Shown here piece by piece: positions 153 to 3,909 of a DNA stretch of 20,081 bases (position 1 is the first letter of the stretch; each line of letters opens with the position of its first letter). The notes below the pieces were generated by a model. It searched no databases. It had not been told where the DNA came from and saw only the letters and a list, made by a program, of their open reading frames with translations. The position numbers were made by a program, and so were the translations under genes. This DNA is from a virus, in the IMG/VR virus record IMGVR_UViG_3300027899_000091, positions 1 through 20,081 of that record. The stretch is one strand, 5' to 3'.

Positions 153-779
153 TTATTCTATTTCATAGAACATTCTTTCTGAATCTTCTGCACCCCATTT
201 AGTATGACTTTCACAATGATAAAATTTTAGGTTTAACTTATAATCAGGAATTACCTTAAAAGGTTCTGACACCATACTAGGTTCATTCCATAAAATTCTA
301 TTATTAGGATATATACAAAAATGTCCAGAGTCTAATTCTATAACATGACCCATCTTATGTTGACTTGGTTCTTCAGCATAAGAAGTAGAAACAGTGGCAC
401 TGCTATCCGCATTCCAATCTAAAGTAAATCTATACCTACCTTCTACCTTTTGTTTATTCTTCAAGTATACCTGGCATCTCTTTCCCTTAAGAAACATAAA
501 CTGTGTTACACTAGGTGTATAAGAAAAACAATCCCATAATTGTAAAATGTGAAAATCAAGATGGGGTGCTTCTTTCTTTTCAAAGGGAACCAGTGCAGAA
601 ATAGGTATCTTATCATACACAGCACCTATATTAGTCATCACTACAAACAATGCAGCAGTTCCCTGTAAACTCTTAATAGCAAAAGCTGTTCCTTCAACTA
701 ATTCTCCGTGATGTTCTTCCAAGTTATATAAATACTCTTTTCTAATATAACATTCTATAGGGGGGATGTTGATGTTCAT
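153..779 (-). CDS. Conserved hypothetical phage protein, 208 aa
   Basis: A complete 208-residue soluble protein beginning MNINIPPIECYIRKEYLYNL, with no signal peptide, membrane segment or catalytic motif I can recognise. The opening resembles a conserved hypothetical protein I associate with crAss-like phages, but no function is known to me. It is the first gene of the minus-strand unit. An intrinsic terminator ends only about 14 bases before its ATG, leaving no room for a separate promoter. It must therefore be expressed by read-through of that terminator from the structured leader upstream, which hints at attenuation control. Confidence 0.85.
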   Translation of the reverse strand: MNINIPPIECYIRKEYLYNLEEHHGELVEGTAFAIKSLQGTAALFVVMTNIGAVYDKIPISALVPFEKKEAPHLDFHILQLWDCFSYTPSVTQFMFLKGKRCQVYLKNKQKVEGRYRFTLDWNADSSATVSTSYAEEPSQHKMGHVIELDSGHFCIYPNNRILWNEPSMVSEPFKVIPDYKLNLKFYHCESHTKWGAEDSERMFYEIE

Positions 780-793
780 AGGATAAAGATAAT

Positions 794-819
794 AAAAAAG
801 CCCACTCCGTAAGTGGGCT
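794..819 (-). terminator. Intrinsic terminator or attenuator before the minus-strand gene
   Basis: On the minus strand an 8-bp stem (AGCCCACT with AGTGGGCT) and a 5-base loop are followed by six U residues. It points towards the gene starting at 779, about 14 bases away. It either ends the noncoding RNA or attenuates the downstream operon. Confidence 0.85.
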
Positions 820-1083
820 GCTCAACTTTAGGTATTGAGTTTGCAAGGACTTGCCTCTGACCGGCTACACCTACAATTTTTGCAGGGAGAAAAAACCCCA
901 AGCAGTTTCTGTTGATCAGACAGTCTTACTTGGAGGTGTTAGTGGTTATACTTTTCAGCTTTCCCAATAACGAAAAGACCAGATCTAGTGAGCAGTTCTT
1001 ACGGTATGCTTACCTGGTACTGTTAAAATTCCATAGCAACAGTATCACTATAGGGTTCTAACAGAAAACCTGTTAGTGGAGTG
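794..1083 (-). ncRNA. Candidate structured noncoding RNA or leader, about 290 nt
   Basis: There is no usable open reading frame here, but hairpins are packed almost end to end: CTCAA/TTGAG at 821-839, GCAA/TTGC at 843-854, ACACCT/AGGTGT at 867-939 enclosing TGCAA/TTGTA (872-884) and CCAAG/CTTGG (898-933, with CTGT/ACAG inside), CTTTTC/GAAAAG at 951-977, ACCAG/CTGGT at 978-1018 with an inner GGTA/TACC, CTGTT/AACAG at 1020-1042, and CTAACAG/CTGTTAG at 1058-1076. Three things place the RNA on the minus strand: a TATATTTG box at its right end, a U-tailed terminator at its left end, and a G-U pair that would be A-C on the other strand. It matches no RNA family I know. The exact 5' end is inferred from the box. 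Confidence 0.55.
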
Positions 1084-1087
1084 ATAC
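1042..1087. repeat. Nested inverted repeat at the structured RNA's 5' end
   Basis: Outer arms GTATCACT (1042-1049) and AGTGATAC (1080-1087) are perfect complements, enclosing CTAACAG/CTGTTAG (1058-1076). The right outer arm abuts the -7 box. It could be an operator for a repressor or the first hairpin of the RNA; the sequence alone does not decide. Confidence 0.7.
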
Positions 1088-1094
1088 AAATATA
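1087..1094 (-). promoter_or_regulatory. Bacteroidota-type -7 element TATATTTG
   Basis: On the minus strand the octamer TATATTTG matches TAnnTTTG, the known -7 consensus of the Bacteroidota primary sigma factor. A clear TTTG -33 box at the usual spacing is not evident, so this is a partial match. Transcription would start a few bases downstream, at about 1083, and run into the structured RNA. Confidence 0.5.
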
Positions 1095-1305
1095 CTACAT
1101 TATACAAATAGCCCAGGGGTAAACGAATGAAAAATAAACCCCCCGGGCAATCTGTTTCATCTGTAGCAAGGTAAAGGTAGGAAGTCTGAGTGAAATGTAC
1201 AACTACGGGGAGGGGTTTTATACTATACAAGAGTGTGTGGTGGGGCATTGGTACAACACCCCCCGGCCCCTGGCGGAGAGGTGGCTACCCCCCTTTGTTT
1301 CAGAG
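1095..1305. other. GC-rich gene-free patch in the divergence region
   Basis: This stretch lies between the minus-strand promoter and the first early cassette and encodes no convincing protein. It differs from the AT-rich surroundings in its long G and C runs. A hairpin at 1111-1148 has GCCC and GGGGT paired with CCGGGC and ACCCC arms, and GGGG/CCCC arms recur near 1243-1265. Position at the strand switch makes a replication origin or another structured element possible, but I see no diagnostic iterons. Confidence 0.45.
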
Positions 1306-3306: not shown

Positions 3307-3702
3307 ATGAAAAGTTCTAAGAAACTAACTGCGTACAAGCAAGCTAAACAAGACCGTTTAGATGCAACTGAAATTGTTAATGAGATCCGTGAGAAGATCA
3401 AGGAGCTTGGTAGCATTGAGGTCGGTAGTACTATAACTATCACTGCTAGTTCCTCTGATAAACAGTTCATCTATGCTGTTGGTGTCCTAATGAGCCAAAC
3501 TGCTGGGGCAACTGCTCTTGGTTTCACCGAGAGTGACTATGCAGAGAGACTGGCACAGGTTACTGCTTTGTGGGAACTTAGGAAGGACCTTAAACCTTGG
3601 GATGATTATGTCTGTGCACTGCGTAGATATGAGCATGAGGTTTATGCACTGCTCAGTGATGATGAGTTATTCCAACTGTTGGAACGTCCTGTGAAGAAAT
3701 AG
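3307..3702 (+). CDS. Hypothetical early protein, 131 aa
   Basis: Largest protein of the cassette array. The N-terminus is basic and helical (MKSSKKLTAYKQAKQDRLDA), followed by a Ser/Thr-rich strand segment and a long helical C-terminal half rich in Leu and acidic residues. No signal peptide or membrane helix and no motif recognised. Its TAG stop overlaps the base of the terminator stem. Confidence 0.8.
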   Translation: MKSSKKLTAYKQAKQDRLDATEIVNEIREKIKELGSIEVGSTITITASSSDKQFIYAVGVLMSQTAGATALGFTESDYAERLAQVTALWELRKDLKPWDDYVCALRRYEHEVYALLSDDELFQLLERPVKK

Positions 3703-3732
3703 GGAAAGGGAGCTTCGGCTCCTTCCCTTTTT
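3701..3732 (+). terminator. Intrinsic terminator of cassette 8 with UUCG loop
   Basis: Stem AGGGAA plus GGAGC paired with GCTCC and TTCCCT, with a two-base bulge, capped by a stable TTCG tetraloop and followed by T residues. Confidence 0.9.
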
Positions 3733-3737
3733 ATTTG

Positions 3738-3753
3738 AACATCTTATAACTTA
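3738..3753 (+). promoter_or_regulatory. Early cassette motif, copy 9
   Basis: AACATCTTATAACTTA, one base off consensus, 31 bases before the ATG at 3769. Confidence 0.75.
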
Positions 3754-3768
3754 AACATAAACTACAAT

Positions 3769-3909
3769 ATGGAAGAGGTAACTATAACCCTTGAGTGGGA
3801 AGAGTACAAGACAATGTTGGCTGCAATATCTGCTATGAAGAACATGGTAGATAATGAGAAGCTAGATGCACTGTATGTAAAGTTGAGCACAAAGTACAAG
3901 GGGGCATAA
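3769..3909 (+). CDS. Small hypothetical early protein, 46 aa
   Basis: A short frame starting MEEVTITLEWEEYKTMLAAI and ending STKYKGA, with a strand followed by a charged amphipathic helix. The evidence for translation is positional: it fills a cassette that has the standard motif, an A-rich leader and a terminator whose loop contains its TAA stop. No family recognised. Confidence 0.7.
   Translation: MEEVTITLEWEEYKTMLAAISAMKNMVDNEKLDALYVKLSTKYKGA

Follow-up and report, generated by a model that had tools for sequence, protein, structure and literature searches.

A pseudoknotted noncoding RNA family with a self-complementary terminator loop in uncultivated viral contigs

Background

What does a hairpin-rich stretch at a divergence point of a phage genome specify? 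The question is raised by positions 794 to 1094 of a lake phage fragment, a complete IMG/VR record of 20,081 bases called the window below. An original prediction took this segment for one hairpin-dense RNA of about 290 bases belonging to an undescribed class.

The DnaB-type helicase of the window has its nearest GenBank phage counterparts in crAss-like phages (about 31% identity). The relatives, all uncultivated viral contigs, measure at most about 118 kb. The window also encodes a uracil-DNA glycosylase and a photoproduct-lyase-like protein. Judged by the established promoter consensus, the host is probably a member of the Bacteroidota, since the window has the promoter boxes TATATTTG and TATCTTTG. 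The 208-aa protein encoded at 153-779 (minus strand) shares about 40% identity with proteins of Pelagibacter phage and cyanophages, which carry inconsistent annotations (PurM or ferredoxin). Between 1540 and 2970 runs a series of short plus-strand ORFs with strong terminator-like hairpins between them, where recurring 'aacatctt(a)ttac' motifs may be phage promoters.

Results and discussion

Two consecutive units in the segment

Folded as the minus strand (1094 to 794), the segment reaches -87.8 kcal/mol, whereas shuffled sequences average -72.0 kcal/mol (z = -3.0), and none of 100 shuffles folds as well, which bears out the dense folding originally predicted. Fold energy by itself barely discriminates strand, the plus strand giving z = -2.25; the predicted structure and its minus-strand orientation are settled by the comparative data. 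As predicted, the TATATTTG box and a U-tailed terminator (794-819) lie on the same strand, and no ORF of 50 aa or more lies inside the segment, where only the end of a 66-aa minus-strand ORF overlaps 1048-1094.

The claim of a single RNA did not stand. The segment contains two complete minus-strand terminators, at 890-935 and 794-819, and comparison with relatives indicates that it is two consecutive units, RNA A and RNA B (Table 1), because the first of these terminators is internal and because each half occurs alone elsewhere: contig L003 carries the 3' half (95% identical) downstream of a gene with no 5' half adjoining, and L026 and L094 carry the 5' half with the 3' half absent. The multibranch element that the original prediction saw closed by ACACCT/AGGTGT (about 934-939 and 866-871) is a chance pairing across the boundary between the two units. 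It is not conserved, it cannot form in L315 and L316 (AAACCC... / GUGAGUGAU), and it lacks a partner at loci where RNA B occurs by itself; its ACACC strand is immediately adjacent to the helices of the pseudoknot and terminator described below. The single-sequence minimum-energy fold is partly wrong, the relatives backing a pseudoknot that such a fold cannot represent.

The hairpin at 1111-1148 is kept at the same site without RNA A in the close relatives L022 and L024, and therefore lies outside RNA A; L003 and L004 have a similar form there, likewise without RNA A at that site.

Table 1. Positions of the features at the divergence point of the window
Feature	Position	Strand	Basis
G+C-rich hairpin GCCCGGGGGG...CCCCUGGGC (arms CCCGGGGGG/CCCCUGGG) at the divergence point, 5' of the promoter	1111-1148	-	sequence
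TATATTTG, Bacteroidota-type -7 box (TAnnTTTG)	1087-1094	-	sequence
RNA A, predicted structured noncoding RNA, about 198 nt	889-1086	-	CM R1, relatives, covariation
5' module hairpin Ia (CUAACAG/CUGUUAG)	1058-1076	-	covariation
5' module hairpin Ib (CUAUAG/CUAUGG), conserved loop UGAUACUGUUG	1031-1053	-	covariation
Core P1	1014-1018 with 978-982 (within 977-1020)	-	covariation
Core P2	1007-1010 with 991-994 (within 977-1020)	-	covariation
P2 loop UACCGUAAGAAC, 12 nt, consensus UNCCRUNAGAWC	995-1006	-	conserved motif
P3	973-976 with 960-963 (within 938-976)	-	covariation
Pseudoknot, P3 loop GUUAUUGG (964-971) with CCACUAAC (938-945)	938-976	-	covariation
P5, RNA A intrinsic terminator, apical loop CUGAUCA at 913-919	890-935	-	sequence and covariation
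RNA B, conserved element of about 94 nt with its own terminator (stem 799-819, U tract)	794-887	-	16 contigs

A family defined by its relatives

Three divergent relatives (L026, L093 and L094) exposed the conserved loops from which search patterns were made. With the terminator-hairpin pattern, 117 stretches were recovered from viral contigs, almost every one preceded by the complete core; an independent P2-loop pattern found at least 119, comprising many new members and some chance matches. The two scans cross-check each other, in that most full-length members from the P2-loop scan have a terminator loop of seven bases that contains a self-complementary hexamer. A last scan of the viral contigs covered 19-nt variants only and served solely to describe them. 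Among the matches listed there are about 110 distinct relatives of RNA A, all in uncultivated viral contigs; matches below about 30 bits or on the strand opposite RNA A were set aside, being taken for symmetric echoes or the short hairpin form. In the window, CM R1 matches 889-1026 with 140.5 bits.

A lack of compensatory base changes in relatives would have counted against the original prediction; such changes are in fact abundant, and on this point it was not refuted. CM R1 realigned 78 distinct RNA A sequences to a named structure of 31 pairs (P1, P2, P3, the pseudoknot and both parts of P5), in which 92.2% of 2400 cells are paired and 26 of the 31 pairs show compensatory double changes; slid-partner controls are 32-51% paired. 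The covariation score is 0.450 against 0.170 for shuffled alignments, a value that none of 500 shuffles reaches. A first MAFFT alignment, fitted to no structure, already gives 89% paired cells and double changes in 19 of the 31 pairs.

The helices of the core contribute individually: P1 (95% of cells paired, double changes in 4 of 5 pairs), P2 (98%, 4 of 4), the pseudoknot helix (88%, 5 of 7), the outer stem of P5 (94%, 6 of 7) and its inner stem (95%, 4 of 4). Pairing in the pseudoknot is kept through the variants GUUACUGG/CCAGUAAC, GAUAUCGG/CCGGUAUC, UGUAUCGG/CUGAUACA, UGC.CAG/CUG..GCA and AGUAAG/CUUUACU, and extends to the most distant members, L211 and L230, as GUCAA with UUGAC or UUGGC. 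Of the 75 distinct members recovered with the terminator-based scan, 73 have the P2 loop motif, although that motif played no part in their selection.

Upstream of the core, the 5' module (window 1029-1086) is 96% paired with double changes in 12 of 13 pairs. Hairpin Ia has compensatory changes in 6 of 7 pairs and 93% of cells paired in 16 relatives. Hairpin Ib has such changes in all 6 pairs with 100% of cells paired; the Ib loop GAUACUGUU was the criterion by which these rows were selected, and its conservation is therefore not independent evidence. RNA A is predicted to start just downstream of the -7 box, at about 1080-1086. The G+C-rich stem-loop and U tract of an intrinsic terminator are found both in P5 (890-935) and at 799-819, which explains only the 3' ends of RNA A and RNA B.

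A self-complementary loop that suggests a dimer

The apical loop of P5 has seven bases, a pyrimidine (Y) followed by a self-complementary hexamer. When loop versions are counted in members found without selecting on the terminator loop, the hexamer occurs as UGAUCA, UGGCCA, UAGCUA and, with a G-U pair, UGGUCA; UGAUCA dominates, which leaves roughly three replacements as the basis of the palindrome argument. A non-palindromic, GACG-type terminator loop occurs in about three lineages: the L234/L275/L318 type, L211, and the second copy of L119 together with L315 and L316. Neighbouring bases in the middle of the hexamer cannot pair within one hairpin, and since self-complementarity is nevertheless kept, pairing between two molecules is indicated. 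The RNA A loops therefore likely form a kissing-loop contact between identical molecules.

The region between P3 and the 3' strand of the pseudoknot (P4) is variable, with short, mid and long types, the window having the short one. Mid-type P4 carries palindromes of 6-8 nt (UGGUACCA, AGGUACCU, AGAUAUCU), and long-type loops are GACG or AACGCGUU. Mid-length loops are palindromic in 15 of 18 variants, against about 5 of 18 in shuffles, the variants being mutually related; P4 is suggestive of a possible second self-pairing site.

Comparison with known RNAs

In agreement with the original prediction that the RNA is undescribed and is not a tmRNA, RNase P RNA, 6S RNA or group I intron, Rfam 15 yields no family above its gathering threshold for the window or for the loci of ten relatives; at relaxed limits only weak, chance-like matches appear there, Trp_leader and CopA among them, far below threshold. 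The Rfam models of RNase P, 6S and group I introns have no match in the window, neither ARAGORN nor Rfam finds a tmRNA in it, and the GOLLD, ROOL and OLE models match neither the window nor the ten relatives' loci, even with relaxed limits. Searching GenBank phages by blastn with three members returned short chance matches only. When five Bacteroidota phage isolates were searched whole, a 22-bit CM match in immuto was rejected, as it is mostly the 3' end of a coding gene and the motifs are absent from it, and a single pattern scan across GTDB genomes yielded two matches that inspection showed to be chance. Every one of these database negatives is bounded by the sensitivity of its search method. 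A literature search whose scope left most subscription journals and preprints outside found no description of RNA A, and the conserved sequences had one unrelated match in the literature searched.

RNA A nonetheless has counterparts of a general kind. The stable RNAs C and D of phage T4 are small, stable, of unknown function and situated inside the phage tRNA cluster; they belong to a different host and phage, and their likeness to RNA A is one of description. The pRNA of phi29, a phage RNA comparable in length, forms multimers through loop-loop pairing. Its loops are intermolecular, are not palindromic and serve packaging; RNA A has no Rfam match, and nothing observed here points to a packaging role for it.

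Closer parallels are ROOL and GOLLD, phage-encoded structured noncoding RNAs of unknown function that often lie near tRNA islands and have pseudoknots and homo-oligomer loops (PMC12286853). They differ in length (about 660 to more than 800 nt, against about 140-290 nt for RNA A) and in helices and loops, and for RNA A an oligomer is suggested by a self-complementary loop whose sequence switches. The inner tetranucleotide of the RNA A loop alternates among GGCC, GAUC and AGCU as in OLE, where the alternation is read as an intermolecular contact; for OLE and GOLLD such switching was argued to mark intermolecular kissing loops, with bridges seen by cryo-EM (PMC12286853). OLE is cellular, large and protein-bound, unlike RNA A. 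RNA A thus appears to be a new, apparently undescribed RNA family of a known general kind and not a member of ROOL or GOLLD. It adds a well-supported family to the phages of a major bacterial phylum, and combines a covariation-backed pseudoknot with a self-pairing loop that can be tested.

Distribution and genomic context

Full-length RNA A is mostly a single-copy feature: 16 of the 18 long contigs with a model match have one full-length copy, and the other two (G025 and G027) have the short hairpin form only. Contig L119 has two adjacent copies (3534-3693 and 3703-3849, minus strand), the second being divergent in type; its terminator loop, UGACGA, recurs ahead of RNA B in L315 and L316. A homolog of the window's DnaB (45-92% identity) is encoded by 10 of 22 long contigs tested, and G020, G021, G022, G029, G043 and G044 encode the phrog_2 terminase (E < 1e-40). 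Since RNA A is found both in phages with the crAss-like DnaB and in phages with this unrelated terminase, it crosses phage groups. It is dispensable, because close relatives of the window phage do without it, either at the same site or altogether.

The position at a divergence point, named in the original prediction, proved incidental: in relatives RNA A is found at varied sites, for the most part close to tRNAs or preceded by a promoter of its own, which rules out a restriction to divergence points. Of 107 loci, 56 have a TAnnTTTG box in the 160 nt upstream, whereas 12% of random positions in these contigs do. The distance of the box varies with the modules present: about -8 where there is only the core, -36 to -41 where one hairpin is added and -68 to -91 where the 5' module is present. 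A same-strand tRNA lies within 300 nt in 38 of 109 loci that are distinct in core and flank, and the near tRNAs listed are all on the same strand. The two contexts are nearly exclusive. Proximity to tRNA islands, as in GOLLD and ROOL, is thus seen across the relatives and not in the window itself, where the tRNA-Arg is 5 kb away on the opposite strand.

Possible function

We consider it fairly probable that RNA A is a stand-alone RNA acting in trans, probably as a dimer, and that it resembles ROOL and GOLLD in working within the phage tRNA module. In the window it would be transcribed leftward from its own Bacteroidota-type promoter and would fold into the two-hairpin 5' module, P1/P2 with the 12-nt loop, the H-type pseudoknot and the terminator hairpin. 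Two copies would then kiss through their UGAUCA loops over 6 bp, making an RNA homodimer the working unit. In the relatives RNA A would be transcribed either alone or inside tRNA arrays, most likely as part of the same module as the phage tRNAs, perhaps serving as a scaffold or decoy while the phage takes over host translation.

The main rival, to which we give roughly a one-in-four chance, is that RNA A serves 3'-end formation or processing as a composite terminator or stability structure for upstream genes or tRNAs and does nothing as an RNA in its own right; the conserved loop would in that case be recognised by a protein of phage or host, for instance an antiterminator or an RNase. RNA A does end in a covarying intrinsic terminator, and many copies are located about 25-29 nt downstream of a tRNA. 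The P1/P2 hairpin with the same conserved loop (UACCRUNAGAWC) and a U tract also exists by itself outside RNA A, between tRNAs or just before a phage tmRNA: it lies within about 20 nt of tRNAs in L216, L217 (872-925), L243, L256 and L266, occurs in L245 as well, and is 27-34 nt upstream of the tmRNA in L220, L248, L257 and L258. A simple terminator, however, needs no pseudoknot, conserved 12-nt loop or 5' module, and neither the mostly single full copy per genome nor the many copies whose own promoter keeps its distance to the RNA 5' end would be expected of such an element.

That RNA A is a cis-regulatory leader, a riboswitch or attenuator of the downstream gene, is very improbable. Most loci do have a same-strand ORF downstream of RNA A, which ends in a terminator, but these downstream ORFs belong to 32 protein families over 100 loci rather than to one regulon, which argues that it is not a gene leader; in several loci a promoter box intervenes between its terminator and the next gene, and no ligand-linked gene recurs downstream among the loci compared. 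Least credible of all is a DNA-level element (a replication origin, packaging or recombination site) that merely resembles RNA, as the divergence point, the inverted repeats and the perfect palindrome TGATCA might suggest, since G-U pairs are frequent in the conserved helices and so bespeak selection at the RNA level, a pseudoknot is meaningless in DNA, promoters and tRNAs are on the same strand as RNA A, and its genome position is not fixed.

If RNA A is a dimerising trans-acting RNA, a broader proposal can be made tentatively, namely that small RNA-only homodimers (or chains, given the P4 palindromes) partner tRNA arrays in at least two unrelated lineages of Bacteroidota phages. Such a class of small homodimers would make self-assembly like that of ROOL and GOLLD a general phage strategy, feasible with about 200 nt. 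What ROOL, GOLLD and similar tRNA-island RNAs do has been a puzzle ever since they were discovered, and RNA A, being short, would be a tractable model for studying it.

RNA B

RNA B occurs in 16 viral contigs with a mean column identity of 89%, too conserved for covariation, so that its structure is weakly tested. It lies directly 3' of RNA A in six records (the window, L086, L253, L306, L315 and L316) and follows protein genes, with no RNA A adjoining, in L003 (7092-7188), L307, L312 and L313. It is placed between tRNA-Met and tRNA-Leu in L184 (about 420-530) and L309, and adjoins a tRNA in L145 and L310. Its frequent position beside RNA A or within clusters of tRNA genes suggests that the tRNA arrays of phages contain noncoding RNAs beyond those annotated.
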